In this document: one piece after another, positions 2,757 through 29,409 of the stretch
Numbering within the stretch: position 1 is the first letter of the stretch
How the letters are laid out: each line of letters opens with the position of its first letter
Origin: Sulfurimonas sp.
Lineage (GTDB): Bacteria; Campylobacterota; Campylobacteria; Campylobacterales; Sulfurimonadaceae
Assembly (NCBI GenBank): GCA_027019335.1
Contig: JALUWV010000095.1
Coordinates: forward strand, 1 to 35,265
Direction: 5' to 3'
DNA: 35,265 nt
The notes under the pieces: generated by a model
The model's input: the letters and a program-made list of their open reading frames with translations, nothing else
What the model was told of the DNA's origin: nothing
The model's database searches: none
Position numbers and translations under genes: made by a program

Positions 2757-4184
2757 TTATTGGAGTAGTTTCATTACATTTTGTTGCACAGAGTTTGCTT
2801 GACTCATAGCATATGTACCAGACTGAGCTAAAATATTACGTTTTGAAAAGTTAGCAGACTCAGCAGCAAAGTCAACATCACGAATCTGTGATTCGGCAGC
2901 TGTAACATTTACTTCTGTTACAGAGATATTTCTTACAGTTGATTCAAGCTGATTTTGTGTAGAACCTATACCAGAACGGATAGCATCAAGTTGTTTTAGT
3001 GCAGAATCAGCAGTACGAATCGCTTTTTCAGCACCCTCTTTTGTTGTTACATCTATTTGACCGAGTGTACTACTTGCCTCTTTTGAAAGTTTTGCACTCA
3101 CAGCAAAACCAACATGAGAAGAACCATTCATTTGAATAGTATGATCAGAAATCAGAGTAATTTTACCGCTATTTAATTGACTTGCTAGACCAGCTACAGC
3201 ACTTACACCAGAAGCAGCACTTACAAGCATATCACTACCATCTTGTGAGGTTAAAGTAAGTTTACCACCATTATTTGTAGCAATAACACCTGTTTTATCT
3301 GTTTGAGCATTAATAGCATTCATCAATGCAGAATCAGCATCACTTGATTTTACATCCACTTTACCAATATCTATACCATTGATAGTCAATGTACCTGCAC
3401 TAATCGTACCTGAAACAACAGCAGCACCATTATATTGAGTAGAAGCAACAGCCGTTACATCCGTCTGAGTAGATATAGCATTGATAGCCACAGCTTTTGC
3501 CCAAGCAGAATCAGCACTATGTGCAATACTGACTGTATCATTAGCTCCACCTAAATCAGCAGAAGTAGCACCAACATTTACAGCTGCACTCAATGCATCT
3601 GTATTGATTTTTAAATCTCCTGCAGCAAGAGCTTTAGTATCAACAGCCACACTACCTGTAGTATCTACATGACGACCAATAGTATTTGTTTGTGTATTGG
3701 CGATGTTAATACCTACTGTTTCATTTGTGTATGCACCAATGTGAAATGATTTGTTTTGAAAAGAGCCATCAAGAAGTTTTTGTCCATTAAACGAAGTAGT
3801 ATTTGCGATGTTGTTTGCTTCGTCTAAAAGTTTACTGATATCATTTTGAATAGCTTGACGAGTATCAGCATTTTGACCATCAGAAGCTGATTGAATTGAT
3901 TTAGTTCTTACAGTGTTAAGAATGTTTTCATACTCATCAAGTGCAGCATCAGCAGTTTGCGCAACACCAATCCCATCATTTGCATTTTTAATAGCTTGTC
4001 CAAGTCCTGTTGCTTGTGATTTTAACTGATTTGCGATTGAAAGACCAGAAGCATCATCTGCAGCAGTATTGATACGAAGTCCAGAACTCAATCTCTCTAA
4101 AGATTTGTCTAATCCGACATTATTGTCTACAGCATTCCTGTGTGCATTTAACGCACCAATGTTTGTGTTAATTCTAAAACCCAT
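2757..4184 (-). CDS. flaB: Flagellin 2 (FlaB-like, sigma-54-type promoter)
   Basis: A 475-residue flagellin, the subunit polymerised into the flagellar filament after export by the flagellar type III system. The N-terminal D0/D1 region (MGFRINTNIGALNAHRNA, then LERLSSGLRINTAADDASG) and the C-terminal D1/D0 region (ESQIRDVDFAAESANFSK to QNVMKLLQ) are canonical. The central D2/D3 region (about 165-360) includes a flagellin 'hook IN' motif, LTINGIDIGKVDV. Like Campylobacter flagellins, it has a TVRTKSIQSASDGQ segment in place of the TLR5-stimulating sequence known from Salmonella. It is nearly identical to the upstream copy except for a short block near residues 319-343 and scattered changes at 230-265. 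By analogy with Campylobacter it is called FlaB because its promoter is sigma-54-like. Many Ser/Thr residues in the centre are candidate glycosylation sites. Confidence 0.95.
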   Translation of the reverse strand: MGFRINTNIGALNAHRNAVDNNVGLDKSLERLSSGLRINTAADDASGLSIANQLKSQATGLGQAIKNANDGIGVAQTADAALDEYENILNTVRTKSIQSASDGQNADTRQAIQNDISKLLDEANNIANTTSFNGQKLLDGSFQNKSFHIGAYTNETVGINIANTQTNTIGRHVDTTGSVAVDTKALAAGDLKINTDALSAAVNVGATSADLGGANDTVSIAHSADSAWAKAVAINAISTQTDVTAVASTQYNGAAVVSGTISAGTLTINGIDIGKVDVKSSDADSALMNAINAQTDKTGVIATNNGGKLTLTSQDGSDMLVSAASGVSAVAGLASQLNSGKITLISDHTIQMNGSSHVGFAVSAKLSKEASSTLGQIDVTTKEGAEKAIRTADSALKQLDAIRSGIGSTQNQLESTVRNISVTEVNVTAAESQIRDVDFAAESANFSKRNILAQSGTYAMSQANSVQQNVMKLLQ

Positions 4185-4193
4185 AATAAATCC

Positions 4194-4230
4194 TTTTCTA
4201 TGAAAGAGGCTTTCGCCTTTTCATAGAAAA
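4194..4230 (-). other. GAAA-tetraloop hairpin in the flagellin 2 mRNA leader
   Basis: On the minus-strand RNA a 12-base-pair stem (TTTTCTATGAAA with its complement), one bulged C, and a 4-base-pair AGGC/GCCT stem are capped by a GAAA tetraloop. The hairpin starts where the sigma-54 transcript should begin and ends at the AAAGGA ribosome binding site. No T-run follows, so it is not a terminator. A role in mRNA stability or translational control is inferred. Confidence 0.7.
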
Positions 4231-4248
4231 GAAGCAAGTTTTATTCCA
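4231..4248 (-). promoter_or_regulatory. Sigma-54 (RpoN)-like promoter of flagellin 2
   Basis: Minus strand: TGGAATAAAACTTGCTTC. GG (complement at 4246-4247) and GC (4234-4235) are ten bases apart, as sigma-54 requires, and the -12 half TTGCTT is as in Campylobacter flagellar class-2 promoters. Predicted start is near 4223. This would make flagellin 2 transcribable independently of flagellin 1, 73 bases away. Confidence 0.75.
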
Positions 4249-4257
4249 TCTTTTTAA

Positions 4258-5685
4258 CTATTGGAGTAAACGCATTACATTTTGTTGTACAGAGTTTGCT
4301 TGACTCATAGCATATGTACCAGACTGCGCTAAAATATTACGTTTTGAAAAGTTAGCAGACTCAGCAGCAAAGTCAACATCACGAATCTGTGATTCGGCAG
4401 CTGTAACATTTACTTGTGTTACAGAGATATTTCTTACAGTTGATTCAAGTTGGTTTTGTGTAGAACCTATACCAGAACGGATAGCATCAAGTTGTTTTAG
4501 TGCAGAATCAGCAGTACGAATCGCTTTTTCAGCACCCTCTTTTGTTGTTACATCTATTTGACCGAGTGTACTACTTGCCTCTTTTGAAAGTTTTGCACTC
4601 ACAGCAAAACCAACATGAGAAGAACCATTCATTTGAATAGTATGATCAGAAATAAGTGTGATATCACCTCTATTTATCGCCCTTGAAAGACCAGATGTTC
4701 CAGATGTATCACTAGCACCACTAATTAATACATCACTACCATCTTGTGAGGTTAAAGTAAGTTTACCTCCACTATTTGTAGCTACAACACCCGTTTTATC
4801 TGTTTGCGCATTAATAGCATTCATCAATGCAGAATCAGCATCGCTTGATTTTACATCCACTTTACCAACATCTATACCATTAATTGTTAAATCACCTGCA
4901 TTAATCGTACCTGAAACAACAGCAGCACCATTTACTGTAGTAGAAGCAACAGCTGTTACATTCGTTTGAGTAGATATAGCATTGATAGCCCCTGCTTTTG
5001 CCCAAGCAGAATCAGCACTATGTGCAATACTGACTGTATCATTAGCTCCACCTAAATCAGCAGAAGTAGCACCAACATTTACAGCAGCAGTAAGAGCATC
5101 TGTATTGATTTTTAAATCTCCTGCAGCAAGAGCTTTACTATCAACAGCCACACTACCTGTAGTATCCACATGACGACCAATAGTATTTGTTTGTGTATTG
5201 GCGATGTTAATACCTACTGTCTCATTTGTGTATGCACCAATGTGAAATGATTTGTTTTGAAAAGAGCCATCAAGAAGTTGTTGCCCATTAAACGAAGTTG
5301 TTTTAGCGATGTTGTTTGCTTCGTCTAAAAGTTTACTGATGTCATTTTGAATCGCTTGACGAGTATCAGCATTTTGACCATCAGAAGCTGATTGAATTGA
5401 TTTGGTTCTTACAGTGTTAAGAATATTTTCATACTCATCAAGTGCAGCATCAGCAGTTTGAGCAACCCCAATACCATCATTTGCATTTTTAATAGCCTGA
5501 CCAAGTCCTGTCGATTGTGATTTTAACTGATTTGCAATTGCAAGACCAGAAGCATCATCTGCAGCAGTATTGATACGAAGTCCAGAACTCAATCTCTCTA
5601 AAGATTTGTCTAATCCGACATTATTGTCTACAGCATTCCTATGTGCATTTAATGCACCAACATTTGTGTTAATTCTAAATCCCAT
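4258..5685 (-). CDS. flaA: Flagellin 1 (FlaA-like, sigma-28-type promoter)
   Basis: A 475-residue flagellin with the same domain plan as the neighbouring copy: D0/D1 at both ends (MGFRINTNVG... and ...QQNVMRLLQ), the central domain at about 165-360, and the LTINGIDVGKVDV hook-IN motif. The two proteins have the same length and can be aligned without gaps. Differences concentrate at 230-265 and at 319-343 (LISGASDTSGTSGLSRAINR here). The gene is preceded by an AAAGGA ribosome binding site seven bases from ATG, a GAAA-loop hairpin and a sigma-28-like promoter, so it is expected to be the major, late (FliA-dependent) filament subunit. It shares with its neighbour the identical AAAGGATTTATTATGGG translation start. 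Confidence 0.95.
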   Translation of the reverse strand: MGFRINTNVGALNAHRNAVDNNVGLDKSLERLSSGLRINTAADDASGLAIANQLKSQSTGLGQAIKNANDGIGVAQTADAALDEYENILNTVRTKSIQSASDGQNADTRQAIQNDISKLLDEANNIAKTTSFNGQQLLDGSFQNKSFHIGAYTNETVGINIANTQTNTIGRHVDTTGSVAVDSKALAAGDLKINTDALTAAVNVGATSADLGGANDTVSIAHSADSAWAKAGAINAISTQTNVTAVASTTVNGAAVVSGTINAGDLTINGIDVGKVDVKSSDADSALMNAINAQTDKTGVVATNSGGKLTLTSQDGSDVLISGASDTSGTSGLSRAINRGDITLISDHTIQMNGSSHVGFAVSAKLSKEASSTLGQIDVTTKEGAEKAIRTADSALKQLDAIRSGIGSTQNQLESTVRNISVTQVNVTAAESQIRDVDFAAESANFSKRNILAQSGTYAMSQANSVQQNVMRLLQ

Positions 5686-6073: not shown

Positions 6074-8305
6074 TTGAATTTAATTATCGTTGAGTCACCA
6101 GCAAAAGCAAAAACAATTAAAAACTTTTTAGGTAAAGGGTATGAGGTTATCGCTTCAAAAGGGCATATCCGTGATTTACCAAAATCTCGTTTTGGGATTA
6201 AACTTGATGAAGAAACACACCATCTTGTCCCAACCTACTCTGTCGCAAAAGAAAATGCCCCTACTGTCAAAGAGATAAAGGCGCTTGCAAAAAAAGCAGA
6301 TACTATCTATATCGCGACCGATGAGGACCGCGAGGGTGAAGCTATCGGGTGGCATATTGCACAAGCAATGAAAAAAGACCCCGCCGAATTACCACGCATC
6401 GTTTTTCATGAGATAACAAAAACAGCCATCAAACATGCCCTTGATTCTGCTAGAACACTCGATATGGATATGGTAAATGCACAACAAGCACGCCGAATAC
6501 TCGACCGCGTCGTAGGCTATAAACTCTCTCCTCTTTTAGCTTCTAAAATCCAAAAAGGACTCTCAGGTGGACGGGTACAAAGTTCTACACTTAAACTCGT
6601 GGTCGACCGTGAACGCGAGATTCAAGCCTTTGTTCCTGTAGAGTACTGGAGCATAGACACAGCATTTAAAACTAACATCGATGCAAATCTCATCGCTCAC
6701 AAGGGCGAGAAAATAGAGAAGATGTCCATAGAAAATGAAACACAGGCACAAGCGATTACAGCAAGTGTCAAAGCAGATAGTTTTACCATCACAAAAATCG
6801 AGACAAAAGAGAGAAGAAGTAAAACACCACCACCTTTTATGACTTCTACACTCCAACAAACTGCTTCATCTAAACTAGGGTTTACACCTAAAAAAACAAT
6901 GATGGTCGCCCAATCTCTCTACGAAGGGGTAAAAACTCCTGATGGCACCTCTGGTGTTATTACTTACATGAGAACCGATTCACTCAACCTTGCACAAGAA
7001 GCAGTTGAAGGTGTCCGTAGTATCATTGAGAGCCGTTTTGGAGAAAAATATCTTCCAAAAGAAGTAAAAGTTTACACTAAAAAATCTAAAGGTGCCCAAG
7101 AAGCGCACGAGGCGATTCGCCCTACTATGCTTGCATTTACTCCTGAGGTCGCACAAAGCTTTTTAAAAGCCGATGAAATTAAACTCTATCGTCTTATCTA
7201 TGAGCGATTTATGGCATGTCAAATGGAAGATGCGAAGTTTGAACAACAAAGCATTATCTTTACTGGAAATGAAAATGAGTACCGTGCAAGTGGGCGTAAA
7301 CTCATTTTTGATGGTTTTTATGCAGTCACGGGAGCAGAAGACAAAGATAAACTCCTCCCAACACTCACAAAAGGCGACAAAGCACAACTCCAAAGTGTTA
7401 AACCTGAACAACACTTTACCGAACCACCTGCGCGTTACTCTGAAGCCAGTCTTATAAAAAAACTCGAGTCTGAAGGTGTTGGTCGTCCTTCCACCTATGC
7501 ACCAACAGTTGCCACACTTAGCCAGCGAACCTATGTAAACATAGAAAAAAAACAAATAGTTCCAACAGAGATGGCATTTACTGTGACTAAAATCCTTGAA
7601 GAACACTTTGCAAACATCGTCGATATATCTTTTACAGCAAATATGGAAGAAAAACTCGATGAAGTTAGTGAAGGAAAAGTGGATTGGCAAAAGCTTTTAG
7701 CGGATTTTTACACTCCATTTATGCAACAAATTGAAGAAGGAAAAGAGAAAATTGTGAGTCTCAAACTCGCTAAACCACTCGGAAGAACTTGTCCAAAATG
7801 TGGGGAACATGAACTCCTTTTAAGAAGTGGACGTTTTGGAAACTTTATCGCGTGTAGCGGTTTTCCTACATGTAAGTACACAGAGCAGTGTGATGCCGAA
7901 GGTAACAAGGTAGAAGAGAAGAAAGAGTTAAGTGAAGAAAAATGTGATAAATGTGGCAAAGACATGGTAGTCAAAAATGGTCGCAATGGACAGTTCTTAG
8001 CGTGTAGTGATTATCCTGATTGTAAAAACACAAAAAGCATCAATGTGGAAGAAAAAACTTCTGAAACACCTTGTCCTGACTGTGGAGGCACAATAAGTCT
8101 GAAAAACTCTCGCCGTGGTCCTTTTTGGGGTTGTAACAACTACCCTGATTGTAAATTCATCTCCAAATTTGAACCAACAACAATTAAATGTAAAGAAAAA
8201 GGCTGTAAAGGTGTTTTAGCCCCTAGAACCTATAGAAACAAAGAAGTTTATGAGTGTGTCAAATGTAAAGCACGCACACCTCGTGAAGAGATTGACAAAC
8301 AATAA
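6074..8305 (+). CDS. topA: DNA topoisomerase I (type IA)
   Basis: A 743-residue type IA topoisomerase that relaxes negative supercoils by a transient 5'-phosphotyrosine break in one strand. The Toprim domain opens the protein (LIIVESPAKAKTI, with Glu7) and carries the acidic triad in ATDEDREGEA (Asp83, Asp85, Glu87). The catalytic tyrosine is Tyr298 in GVITYMRTDS. The C-terminal ~165 residues hold four zinc ribbons, three with the typical CPxCG ... ACSxxPxCK spacing and a last, more divergent one (CKEKGCKG ... CVKC). The start is TTG, chosen because the Toprim motif begins at residue 3. The gene is divergent from tRNA-Phe. A TA pair begins 15 bases after its stop. Confidence 0.97.
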   Translation: MNLIIVESPAKAKTIKNFLGKGYEVIASKGHIRDLPKSRFGIKLDEETHHLVPTYSVAKENAPTVKEIKALAKKADTIYIATDEDREGEAIGWHIAQAMKKDPAELPRIVFHEITKTAIKHALDSARTLDMDMVNAQQARRILDRVVGYKLSPLLASKIQKGLSGGRVQSSTLKLVVDREREIQAFVPVEYWSIDTAFKTNIDANLIAHKGEKIEKMSIENETQAQAITASVKADSFTITKIETKERRSKTPPPFMTSTLQQTASSKLGFTPKKTMMVAQSLYEGVKTPDGTSGVITYMRTDSLNLAQEAVEGVRSIIESRFGEKYLPKEVKVYTKKSKGAQEAHEAIRPTMLAFTPEVAQSFLKADEIKLYRLIYERFMACQMEDAKFEQQSIIFTGNENEYRASGRKLIFDGFYAVTGAEDKDKLLPTLTKGDKAQLQSVKPEQHFTEPPARYSEASLIKKLESEGVGRPSTYAPTVATLSQRTYVNIEKKQIVPTEMAFTVTKILEEHFANIVDISFTANMEEKLDEVSEGKVDWQKLLADFYTPFMQQIEEGKEKIVSLKLAKPLGRTCPKCGEHELLLRSGRFGNFIACSGFPTCKYTEQCDAEGNKVEEKKELSEEKCDKCGKDMVVKNGRNGQFLACSDYPDCKNTKSINVEEKTSETPCPDCGGTISLKNSRRGPFWGCNNYPDCKFISKFEPTTIKCKEKGCKGVLAPRTYRNKEVYECVKCKARTPREEIDKQ

Positions 8306-8320
8306 TGAAAGGAGTTTATG

Positions 8321-8533
8321 ATGCTATCACTCAATATCAATAATCCTACTGTTGAGAACTTTTATAAACAAGAGTGTCATGGCGATAATGAGACTTTTGT
8401 GAGTAATCTTTTACACTATATCGAAACTTACAATATCAAGAAAAGTTTTACCAAGGGTTTAAATGAAGTTAATCTAATACAAGAGGGTGTACTAGAAAAA
8501 CGAGAATTTAAGCAAATGATAAATGAACTATAA
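8321..8533 (+). CDS. Antitoxin of a RelE-type toxin-antitoxin pair
   Basis: A 70-residue protein immediately upstream of, and overlapping by 11 bases, a RelE-like toxin gene. The N-terminal strand LSLNINNPTVENFYK is typical of small campylobacterial antitoxins that use a beta-strand/helix dimerisation and DNA-binding head. The C-terminal half (LNEVNLIQEGVLEKREFK) would wrap the toxin. Two ATG codons are adjacent (8318 and 8321). AAAGGAG at 8308-8314 is only 3 bases from the first but 6 from the second, so 8321 is preferred. As in other type II modules, the antitoxin would neutralise the toxin and repress the pair's own promoter. I do not recognise the exact antitoxin subfamily. Confidence 0.75.
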   Translation: MLSLNINNPTVENFYKQECHGDNETFVSNLLHYIETYNIKKSFTKGLNEVNLIQEGVLEKREFKQMINEL

Positions 8534-8846
8534 GGTTATCCCAACGCCTGAGTTTGTTAAAAATCTTAAAACACTCAAAAAAAAGTATCCAAATATAAAA
8601 AATGATGTTTTAAAACTTGCAAACCATCTTGAAAAAAATCCAAAAATGGGGATAGAACTAGGGAATAATACCTACAAAATTCGACTTAAAAATAGCAATA
8701 ACAACAGAGGAAAGAGTGCAGGTTATCGAATAATAACTTACTGTGTCAATGAAGATAATGAACTTTATTTCATCACTATCTACTCAAAATCTGACAAAGA
8801 AAATATTTTAGATTTAGAGCTTCAAGAGCTGATTAGGAATAGATAA
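8523..8846 (+). CDS. RelE-family toxin (mRNA interferase-like)
   Basis: A 107-residue RelE/ParE-superfamily toxin. Features seen: an N-terminal strand-helix VIPTPEFVKNLKTLKKKYP, a second helix ending in LEKNP, then NNTYKIRLKNS and the KSAGYRIITY strand, and the C-terminal signature ITIYSKSDKENI, which is typical of this RelE subgroup. By family it would cleave mRNA on the ribosome and be held inactive by the upstream antitoxin. It overlaps the antitoxin gene by 11 bases (ATGATAAATGAACTATAA region), and its stop is followed with no gap by the ATG of the metallophosphoesterase gene. The pair therefore sits inside what reads as one operon from topA to bioB. The lysine- and arginine-rich composition fits an RNA-binding toxin. 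It appears intact. Confidence 0.85.
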   Translation: MNYKVIPTPEFVKNLKTLKKKYPNIKNDVLKLANHLEKNPKMGIELGNNTYKIRLKNSNNNRGKSAGYRIITYCVNEDNELYFITIYSKSDKENILDLELQELIRNR

Positions 8847-25664: not shown

Positions 25665-27203
25665 ATGAAAAATGTTAGCATAATCGTCCTCGATTTTGGT
25701 TCTCAATACACGCAACTGATTGCACGTCGTCTTCGCGAAGACAAGATATACTGTGAGATACTTCCTTATCATACATCTGTCGCAGATATTCAAGCAAAAA
25801 ACCCTCAAGGAGTTATTCTCTCTGGTGGGCCTTCGTCTGTTTATAGTGAAAATGCTTACGAAGTAGATAAAGCCGTTTATGATTTAGGACTGCCTATTCT
25901 TGGTATTTGTTATGGAATGCAAAGAATTGCTGTTGATTTTGGAGGAAGTGTGATTCGCTCTGACCACCATGAATACGGTAAAGCAGAACTTAAAATCGAA
26001 ACAGACTCCCCACTTTTAGCTGATTGTGATGATGAACGCATCGTTTGGATGAGTCACTCTGATAGAGTTGATGTTCTCCCTGAAGGGTTTACTCCTATTG
26101 CTACTTCTGCAAACTCTCCATATGCAGCGATTGCAAATGAAGAAAAACGTGTTTATGCAATGCAATTTCACCCTGAAGTTCAGCACTCTGAAGAGGGTTA
26201 CTTAATGCTTCGTAACTTTGCAAAAAACATTTGTGGTGTTACTGAAAAATGGAAAATGGAGCATTTCTTAAAACAACAAATCGAACTTATCCGTGAAAAA
26301 GTCGGTGATGGAAAAGTACTTTGTGGACTCAGTGGTGGGGTAGATAGCTCTGTTGTTGCTGCAATGCTTTATGAAGCGATAGGAGATCAACTTGTTCCTG
26401 TATTTGTTGACAATGGACTTTTACGCAAAGGCGAACGCCAACAAGTAGAAGATGTTTTTAAAATAAATCTCAAAGCACCACTTATCACAGTAGATGCAGT
26501 AGATAACTTTTTAGGTAAGCTTGCAGGTGTTTCAGACCCTGAGCAAAAACGCAAGATTATCGGACATACATTTATAGAAGAGTTTGAAAAAGAGGCAAAA
26601 AAACATGATGGCATCAAGTTTTTAGCACAAGGAACACTCTATCCTGATGTTATCGAGTCTATTTCTGTAAATGGTCCCTCTGAAGTGATTAAATCACACC
26701 ATAATGTTGGTGGTTTACCTGATTGGATGGATTTTGAACTGATTGAACCACTTCGAGAACTTTTTAAAGATGAAGTCCGTAAAATCGGTTTAGAGTTAGG
26801 ACTTCCAGAGGGTATGATTAACCGTCATCCTTTCCCTGGGCCAGGACTTGCGATTAGAATTATGGGTGATGTTAATGTTCCTGACTTAGATTTACTTCGT
26901 GAAGCAGATGTCATTTTACTCGATGAACTCAAAGCCAGTGGGTACTACGCAAAAACATGGCAAGCTTTCGCTGTACTTTTAAATGTAAAATCAGTCGGTG
27001 TGATGGGTGATAACCGAACATACGATAATACAATTGCTGTACGTGTTGTAGAAGCAGTCGATGGTATGACGGCTACTTTTGCACACTTGCCACATGATTT
27101 ACTAGAGCGAATTTCTCGCAGAATTATCAATGAAGTTGATGGCATCAATAGAGTTGTTTATGATATTTCAAGCAAGCCACCAGCAACGATTGAGTGGGAA
27201 TAA
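25665..27203 (+). CDS. guaA: GMP synthase (glutamine-hydrolysing)
   Basis: A 512-residue GMP synthase, which aminates XMP to GMP with ATP and glutamine. The glutaminase domain (1-~190) has the nucleophile Cys82 in LGICYGMQ and the His-Glu of [10 protein letters not shown]. The ATP-pyrophosphatase domain has the loop [11 protein letters not shown] near 220. The C-terminal dimerisation domain contains [13 protein letters not shown] and ends in KPPATIEWE, the conserved terminus. ATG 25665 follows TAAGG. Length and motifs are those of the full bacterial enzyme. hemD overlaps its 3' end, and purD lies 1 kb further on. Confidence 0.98.
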
Positions 27204-27840
27204 AGATATTTATCTTTTTTCCACCTCTTCGCACCCTGATACTATAAACATTCGCTCATTAGAGATAAGTTTTTTTTCACCACAAATTGATTTTTCTTCT
27301 TCTGAATACCTCCTCATTACCTCTAAGCAGGCACTTAAGGCACTTAAAAACTATAAAAGCCAAGATTATGCACAAAAAAAGGTATTTTGCATCTCACAAG
27401 CAACGGCAAAGACAGCTAAAAAAATGGGATTAGATGTTGTTGCAGTCGCTCAAGGGTATGGGGATACCCTCACAGAAATTCTACAAGACTATCCAAAGAC
27501 AACTCACTACTTATACCTTCGAGGAGAAGTTGTTGCTTCTGACTTTGTACAAAGATGTCAAAAGGATGGTTATAGTATAGAAGAAGCCATTGTTTATAAA
27601 AGTGAATGTTCCCAAGCACTTCTTGAAAAAGATTTCAAAAAAAAGAGTATTTTTATCTTTACCTCCCCTTCTGCGGTGAAGTGCTTTTTAAAAACACATA
27701 CATTTCCAGAGGATTCTTTGAGTATAGTTATAGGAAAAACCACAGCAAAAAGCCTCCCAAGAGAGGCTTTATATGCTATCGCTCCTGAGCCTAGTATTGA
27801 TGCATGTGTTGCACTTGCACAAACTTATCGTGCTAACTAA
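27190..27840 (+). CDS. hemD: Uroporphyrinogen-III synthase
   Basis: About 216 residues; HemD closes and inverts ring D of hydroxymethylbilane to give uroporphyrinogen III for haem, siroheme and B12. The family is poorly conserved. Marks here are [12 protein letters not shown] near the start, [66 protein letters not shown], and [11 protein letters not shown], which together follow the HemD two-domain pattern. The frame is open from 27130, but the family begins near DIYLF. No ATG is available there; TTG 27190 (overlapping guaA by 14 bases) is the best candidate and ATT 27208 is an alternative. Coupling to guaA translation is likely. Confidence 0.85.
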
Positions 27841-27863: not shown

Positions 27864-27869
27864 TATAAT
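27864..27869 (+). promoter_or_regulatory. Consensus -10 box for the 6S-like RNA
   Basis: A perfect TATAAT, preceded by TTTTTTG as is typical for vegetative promoters in this phylum, ends 8 bases before the first paired base of the structured RNA at 27878. Confidence 0.75.
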
Positions 27870-27877
27870 ACATTCTT

Positions 27878-28072
27878 AGTCTGATATGTTCGATTAATCG
27901 CACCAATGAGGGTTCTACATATTCAAATCGTGAATCAGTAGAGTTTTTGTGTGTCGGTGCTATCGTTTGAGATATGTTCACTCTGTCGAGATACTGCCGC
28001 CGTTAAATGACTCTCTCTTCACCCAAATTCGGCTTTTAGAACCAAGCCAAATGCGAAGCGGCATATCGGGCT
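27878..28072 (+). ncRNA. ssrS: 6S-like RNA (purD-motif position)
   Basis: About 195 bases that fold into one long rod. AGTCTGATATG (27878-27888) pairs with CATATCGGGCT (28062-28072) over 11 pairs including G-U pairs. GGTTCTA (27911-27917) pairs with TAGAACC (28037-28043), and GTGAA (27930-27934) with TTCAC (28018-28022). CGGTGCTATC (27955-27964) pairs with GATACTGCCG (27990-27999) at 9 of 10 positions and forms the terminal hairpin. Between the last two stems lies a roughly symmetrical open region of about 20 bases per side. This is the 6S RNA plan, in which an open central bubble mimics a melted promoter and holds RNA polymerase. The place upstream of purD is where the epsilonproteobacterial purD motif, later linked to 6S RNA, is found. 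A separate promoter for purD follows, so this RNA is probably independent. Confidence 0.8.
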
Positions 28073-28106
28073 ATATTATTTTAAACATCTATTGAGTGTA
28101 TTTTTG

Positions 28107-28112
28107 TATACT
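28107..28112 (+). promoter_or_regulatory. -10 box for purD
   Basis: TATACT preceded by TTTTTG, the same pattern as the RNA's promoter. A start near 28119 gives a 25-base leader containing the GGAGA ribosome binding site before ATG 28144. It implies that purD need not be transcribed through the upstream RNA. Confidence 0.6.
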
Positions 28113-28143
28113 TTATAGATTTTTAAGCAATTGGAGAAGATAT

Positions 28144-29409
28144 ATGAAAATTTTGATTTTAGGAAGTGGTGGACGCGAGTACTCTATTGCTAGAGCTATA
28201 AAAAATGAACAAGAAGAGCATGAACTTTTCTTTCAACCTGGAAATGGTGCTACACATCAGCTAGGAACCAACCTCAATATTAAAGATTATCACGATTTAG
28301 CTGCATTTGCAGAGGAAAATGCGATTGAACTTACAATCGTTGGTCCTGAAGCTCCTTTAGTAGACGGAGTTGTTGATATTTTTAAAGCAAAAGGCTTAAA
28401 TATTTTTGGACCTAGTAAAGAAGCGGCTCAACTTGAAGGCTCAAAAGTCTATATGAAAAACTTTTTAGCTAAATACAACATTCCTACAGCTCGCTATATC
28501 GAAACAGCTTCCATAGAAGATGCTTTTAAATTTACCGATACACTCCAAGCCCCTATCGTTGTCAAAGCAGATGGACTTTGTGGTGGAAAAGGTGTCATTA
28601 TTGCACAAAGCCATGATGAAGCAAAAATCGCTATCTCTGAAATGCTTAGTGGAAAATCTTTTGGAGATGCAGGGCTTAAAGTCATTGTCGAAGAGTTCTT
28701 AGATGGATATGAACTCTCAATGTTCGCTGTATGTGATGGTAAAGATTATATCTTACTCCCAGCAGCACAAGACCATAAACGTCTTCTAAACAACGATGAA
28801 GGTCCAAATACAGGGGGGATGGGAGCTTATGCACCAACACCACTTGTTGATGAAACACTTTACCAAAAGGTAAGAGAACGCATCATTCACCCTACTCTTG
28901 ATGGAATGCAAAAAGAGAATGCCCCTTTTGAGGGTGTCCTTTTTATAGGCATAATGGTTGTCAATGGAGAACCTATTACTTTAGAATTTAATGTACGTTT
29001 TGGAGACCCTGAGTGTGAAATACTCATGCCACTTATGACATCAAGTGTCAGCGATATGTTTTTAAAAGCTTCTACAAATAGACTCTCAGAAATACAAGTA
29101 GAGTTCTCTTCACAACATGCAGTTGGTGTTGTCATGGCGAGTGGAAACTACCCTTATAGTAGTTCTACCCCTGCTGAAATCATTCTTGATGATGTGAAAC
29201 ATGAAGATATTGCAAACAATACACATATTTCATTTGCTGGTGTAAGCATGGAAGATGATGTTTTATATGCAGACGGTGGACGTGTTTTAGTTTGTGTTGG
29301 TTTAGGCGATACAATTAAACAAGCTCGTGACCGTGCCTACTTACGCTGTGGACAAGTACACTTTGCAGGTAAAAAACTTCGCACTGACATTGCTTACCAA
29401 GCATTATAG
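28144..29409 (+). CDS. purD: Phosphoribosylamine-glycine ligase (GAR synthetase)
   Basis: A 421-residue ATP-grasp enzyme, the second step of purine synthesis: phosphoribosylamine + glycine + ATP to GAR. ATG 28144 is chosen because [15 protein letters not shown] is the conserved N-terminus and GGAGA lies eight bases upstream; the frame's earlier Met codons are in the leader. The motifs are in order: [45 protein letters not shown] (ATP-grasp), [20 protein letters not shown], and [17 protein letters not shown]. No fusion with purM or purN. The RDD gene follows 8 bases later. Confidence 0.97.

Follow-up and report, generated by a model that had tools for sequence, protein, structure and literature searches.

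In the parts of Porcelli et al. (2013, PMC3847290) drawn upon here, the top-transcribed non-coding RNA of Campylobacter jejuni besides rRNA and tRNA sits before purD, and it is described, with northern blot evidence, as a 6S RNA of 185 nt that has a sigma70 promoter of its own and for which a 13-nt pRNA was found. According to the same parts of that paper, the RNA shows no growth-phase regulation, unlike that of Escherichia coli, and a shorter part of it had earlier been proposed as a purine riboswitch. Helicobacter pylori carries a homologue at the same place, with pRNAs (Sharma et al. 2010, as cited in PMC3847290), and the relevant section of a review lists the H. pylori 6S RNA as validated by northern blot (PMC8322730). 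In E. coli, the 6S RNA gene is bicistronic with ygfA, an arrangement of which the excerpt used here says that its significance is unknown and a link to purines is suspected (PMC2848244). The re-interpretation of the purD element from riboswitch to 6S RNA is not new, because it is already in print (PMC3847290). The identity of the RNA was thus known, and our additions, which concern gene linkage and the terminator, are modest.

The window studied here is a whole stretch of 35,265 nucleotides from a Sulfurimonas genome, and coordinates refer to its forward (+) strand unless stated otherwise. A Pfam search of the window gave the gene order guaA-hemD-RNA-purD, followed by an RDD-family gene. The hemD gene (uroporphyrinogen-III synthase; Pfam HEM4, 3e-27) occupies positions 27130-27840, with an uncertain start codon, and purD (phosphoribosylamine-glycine ligase; Pfam GARS_N, GARS_A and GARS_C) occupies 28144-29409, preceded by GGAG at 28133-28136, the likely ribosome binding site. 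The nearest named loci for the window PurD, 97% identical, belong to Sulfurimonas genomes. Within the 3' end of the hemD frame lies a GC-rich inverted repeat, AAAGCCTCCCAAGAGAGGCTTT (27748-27770), which resembles a two-way terminator; a sub-threshold Phe_leader match at 27631-27776 was driven by this repeat and was judged to be due to chance. Elsewhere in the window, a small two-gene cassette (8318-8846) is likely a toxin-antitoxin pair, its second protein matching RelE/ParE toxins in Pfam and its first, of 71 aa, giving no Pfam match. Two tandem and very similar frames of 475 aa each on the minus strand (2757-5685) are presumably flagellins.

The RNA, of about 195 nt, extends from 27878 to 28072. 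The Rfam purD motif RF01069 matches positions 27938-28071 with 76.4 bits (E 5.1e-13), well above its gathering threshold of 41 bits, and spans only the 3' two thirds of the RNA, leaving the first 60 nt outside the Rfam model. A covariance model made here from 42 sequences (R1) matched the window end to end over 27878-28072 (1-192 of 192) with 139 bits, a score that is not independent because the window is among the model sequences. The boundaries proposed in a previous reading of the sequence alone (hereafter the sequence-only reading) were therefore exact, and the Rfam purD model that it had suggested running does recognize the RNA. A second R1 match in the window (7283-7434, minus strand, 13.9 bits) falls inside the frame 6074-8305 and was judged a chance match.

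A TATAAT box at 27864-27869 is placed alike in relatives. From 80 named PurD loci of the Sulfurimonas group we retained 75 with a full-length RNA; two had no match in the sequence examined (L040, L058), two had almost no upstream DNA (L068, L104) and one was not full length. TATAAT starts 9-19 nt upstream of the RNA 5' end in 73 of these 75 loci and lies 10-12 nt upstream in all 25 Campylobacter loci. Among 38 loci from other genera, the exact hexamer was found 11-15 nt upstream in at least 23 and was absent from the 45 nt read in eight. As judged from this conservation, TATAAT at 27864-27869 is the -10 box of the promoter predicted to drive the 6S RNA. A consensus scan for promoters and terminators missed both this promoter and the AU-rich hairpin discussed below, and its two promoter matches were at or below the level of shuffled sequences.

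The folding energy of the single sequence was weak (z -1.55, with 11 of 200 shuffles equally good) and we rejected it as proof of an RNA. Covariation was assessed in two alignments. The first, A1, contains the window and 55 Sulfurimonas-group sequences left after a 93% identity filter. The second, A2, from which R1 was made, contains 42 sequences from 38 genera, namely the window, the 38 of 64 genus loci whose sequence match covered the full RNA and three of six non-redundant Campylobacter sequences; two weak second matches (L167, L168) were excluded from the 64. For A1, RNAalifold gave 53 pairs in seven helices, with 97.0% of cells paired and 28 pairs changed on both sides. The covariation score was 0.339 against 0.172 in shuffled alignments, and 285 cells were changed on both sides against 76.7, no shuffle out of 500 being as high in either measure. 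A2 gave 40 pairs, 92.8% paired and 30 changed on both sides, with a score of 0.516 against 0.246 and 275 doubly changed cells against 85.3, again with no shuffle out of 500 reaching these values. When the pairing partners were shifted by 1-3 columns, the paired share fell to 36-48% (A1) and 37-44% (A2); part of this excess is to be expected, since each structure had been computed from the alignment on which it was tested. The stems thus covary in relatives, a check that the sequence-only reading had itself proposed.

The closing stem (helix 1) pairs 27878-27892 with 28059-28072 and has 14 pairs in A1, with 98.9% of cells paired and seven pairs changed on both sides. Next to the central bubble, a P2-like helix (helix 3) pairs GGUUCU at 27911-27916 with AGAACC at 28038-28043; it is near-invariant in A1 and shows compensated variation across genera in A2, where 98.6% of cells are paired. 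Covariation thus strongly supports a predicted full-length rod with a central bubble. Four nested helices around a wide open centre had been described before; the asymmetric central bubble is borne out, but the consensus has seven helices.

On its 5' side, the central bubble covers 27917-27929, where an ACA beside the helix is invariant in the 56 sequences of A1. This side is likely to be the template region for the start of the pRNA, a start that we guessed from conservation alone. The 3' side (28023-28037) is unpaired in the consensus. In local folds, it can form a hairpin (GGCUU/AAGCC, 28031-28048) that was found in all 42 A2 sequences as an alternative to the rod. The capacity to form a hairpin here is shared with the release structures of gamma-type 6S RNA and of Bacillus subtilis 6S-1, as these are presented in the portion of PMC8876501 consulted. 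There, the gamma-type hairpin takes up the 3' strand of the helix that borders the bubble, and in most of the other families hairpin and helix likewise share that strand; in the family of the window, and in the window itself, it falls instead in or near the hairpin loop. A three-way covariation among hairpin, bubble helix and shared strand was seen in A2 (columns 39/194/209, GGC in 33 and AAU in 4 of 42 sequences), but it amounts to about one event because the four AAU rows correspond to the four Campylobacter-type sequences.

The Rfam 6S model RF00013, also suggested by the sequence-only reading, gave no match in the window at E<=10. The connection to canonical 6S RNA comes through relatives. 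In two loci of family f5, the same RNA is matched by both models: L177 by RF00013 at 2436-2613 (45.2 bits) and by RF01069 at 2501-2608 (33.4 bits), and L162 by RF00013 with 35.9 bits and by RF01069 with 32.1 bits. In a third relative, G300, RF00013 (C36:7798-7976, E 3.4e-8) and R1 (7801-7972) fall at the same place. Whole-genome searches with RF00013 matched two of 13 deep-branching genomes of families f5 and f6 (G300, 3.4e-8; G382, 6.9e-6), and the RF00013 scores in relatives (45.5, 45.2 and 35.9) all lie under the cut-off of 46.4. When R1 was run without filters on 2.8 kb around E. coli ssrS, the best of 30 matches covered 1187-1363, against an annotated ssrS at 1184-1366; the score was low (12.9 bits, the next being 5.9; rough E 6e-4) and came mostly from the closing stem. 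Judged by these bridging relatives and by the R1 match to ssrS, the RNA of the window is homologous to canonical 6S RNA. We are highly confident that it is the 6S RNA of the Campylobacter/Sulfurimonas group, one with a predicted promoter of its own that would act as a decoy for RNA polymerase and be released by pRNA synthesis. The sequence-only reading was right in calling it a trans-acting 6S RNA and not a purD riboswitch, as had been published for C. jejuni and H. pylori. The G+C content of the RNA is 59-61% in the f5 loci L162, L176 and L177 and 44% in the window. High G+C of structured RNA is expected in thermophiles.

RF01069, searched with stricter filters, was found at E<=0.001 in 376 of 397 Campylobacterota genomes, which represent 61 of 68 genera; the 14 control genomes gave no match at this level. 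R1 recovered 16 of the 21 genomes missed by RF01069, at E 2.4e-7 or better, which brings the combined count to 392 of 397 genomes and 67 of 68 genera. Five genomes (G358, G174, G274, G283 and G349) gave no RNA with either model. One of them, G358, is the sole sampled genome of its genus (g7) and has neither the RNA nor a normal PurD; its absence there may be an assembly gap.

The gap between the RNA and purD is 71 nt long in the window. It holds a terminator-like hairpin with a U run (28087-28124), similar to hairpins in relatives; the hairpin itself (28087-28120) folds with -12.2 kcal/mol (z -4.07, 0 of 200 shuffles) and is followed by UUUU. The Sulfurimonas-group gaps examined were those of the window and of 73 loci (74 gaps), L041 and L090 being counted in the promoter test and left out of this one. 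A hairpin followed by T's was present in 54 of the 74 at p<=0.05 and in 48 at p<=0.01, by a home-made score uncalibrated on known terminators, and 20 gaps had no significant hairpin. In the 53 gaps with a hairpin score of at least 16, the hairpin stops 16-31 nt short of the ATG, so that hardly more than a ribosome binding site fits in between. By the same home-made score, 11 of 43 gaps at the genus level and none of 30 Campylobacter gaps passed, and 17 of 24 genus gaps longer than 45 nt folded better than shuffles at p<=0.05. Gaps are short in many lineages, at 45 nt or less in 33 of 57 genera and 13-25 nt in 25 Campylobacter loci. Given the hairpin and the short gaps, transcription of purD probably comes from readthrough or starts at a promoter within the RNA gene.

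These observations are consistent with the 6S RNA and purD forming one unit transcribed from the 6S promoter, in which the hairpin would be a partial terminator and purD would be coupled to 6S output, as in ssrS-ygfA. The E. coli pair, for which a purine link has been proposed in the text cited above (PMC2848244), offers a precedent, and fau starts 75 nt after ssrS in that species. Against a single unit stands the broken linkage in 7 of the 64 genera, and we place its chances just short of even. The broader form of the proposal, that throughout Campylobacterota the two make up one unit and purD needs readthrough past the 6S RNA or its processing, is offered tentatively and is more probably wrong than right. 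If true, polymerase inhibition and purine synthesis would be wired together at the level of transcription and, with the ssrS-ygfA of gamma-proteobacteria, this would be a second case in which a 6S RNA is tied to a purine or one-carbon gene.

The sequence-only reading places an independent promoter for purD behind the 6S RNA, with TATACT (28107-28112) as its -10 box. The hexamer matches TATAAT at five of six positions, and its end is about 31 nt upstream of the ATG. In two loci, L041 and L090, the RNA lies 1.8-1.9 kb from purD with an opposite-strand frame between them, which suggests that purD may have its own promoter in some relatives. These frames (575-2365 in L041 and 675-2315 in L090) encode about 550-600 aa and gave no Pfam match. 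In the window, however, TATACT falls in the 3' arm of the hairpin, with U's after it, and in the two nearest relatives (L032, L033) the hairpin is kept while TATACT is replaced by TATGCT. Nor are -10-like boxes enriched in the gaps: matches at five of six positions numbered 34 against a shuffle mean of 48 in the 74 Sulfurimonas-group gaps, exact ones 8 against 10.1, and the 57 genus gaps had 21 against 19.3. The TATACT region is more likely to be part of a transcription terminator than a purD promoter, and an independent promoter at this hexamer appears improbable.

The third reading, implied by the Cis-reg type that Rfam gives to the motif, is that of a purD riboswitch or cis-acting leader which senses a purine-pathway metabolite and controls purD. 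It would agree with the short gaps and with the position of purD directly downstream of the RNA in 57 of the 64 genus loci. This linkage is not obligate, however. In the other seven genera purD is not next to the RNA, a GARS_N gene being found elsewhere in six and nowhere in G222. One such locus (L152) reads hemD-RNA-RDD-lptD, purD having disappeared from within the series; the RNA also remains next to hemD, with no adjoining purD, in L162, L176 and L177. RF01069 is retained in each of the three genomes sampled from genus g54, none of which has a normal PurD (GARS_A none, 3.1e-5 and 3.1e-7). The relocated purD genes brought no second copy of the RNA at E<=0.001, each of the six genomes (G382 among them) having a single match. 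Since the RNA is retained in genomes that have relocated or lost purD, is separated from it by opposite-strand frames in L041 and L090 and is homologous to 6S RNA, a purD riboswitch is largely refuted and extremely improbable. It is the persistence without purD that is decisive; the order hemD-RNA-purD, which was correctly read and had been taken as an argument for a trans-acting RNA, proves little by itself. Likewise, the idea that nucleotide-dependent pRNA synthesis is affected by the proximity of purine genes finds no support, as the linkage is common but dispensable.

Besides the location, covarying fold, conserved promoter, 6S homology and independence from purD observed here, we propose a mechanism for the 6S RNA of the window. 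Its gene would be transcribed from its own sigma70-type promoter with TATAAT at 27864-27869, and the transcript would form an extended rod, with a central bubble that mimics an open promoter. In the organism of the window, the RNA would bind the housekeeping RNA polymerase and be released when the enzyme uses it as a template for a short pRNA. Transcription would stop at the hairpin (28087-28124), and purD may then be reached by readthrough. Recognizing the Rfam purD "cis-regulatory" motif as the 3' two thirds of a 6S RNA removes a misleading label, and a full-length model should replace RF01069. Natural comparisons that bear on the frequent placement of 6S RNA genes ahead of a purine or one-carbon gene are provided by the terminator-like hairpin separating the 6S RNA from purD and by the genera where the linkage is broken.

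Among the systems described, RF01069 recognizes the same conserved arm, but its model starts 60 nt into the RNA and carries the Cis-reg label. RF00013 and E. coli ssrS resemble the window RNA in length, in closing-stem sequence, in the central bubble and in having a purine or one-carbon gene 71-75 nt downstream; they differ in that the sequence has diverged too far for RF00013 to match the window and in the identity of that gene, which is ygfA/fau in E. coli and purD here. The closest likeness is to the 6S RNA of C. jejuni and H. pylori, which, as described in PMC3847290, also lies before purD, has its own sigma70 promoter and a 6S-type fold, and starts upstream of the purD motif. In the Campylobacter loci the gap measures 13-25 nt, whereas that of the window is 71 nt long and contains a terminator-like hairpin.
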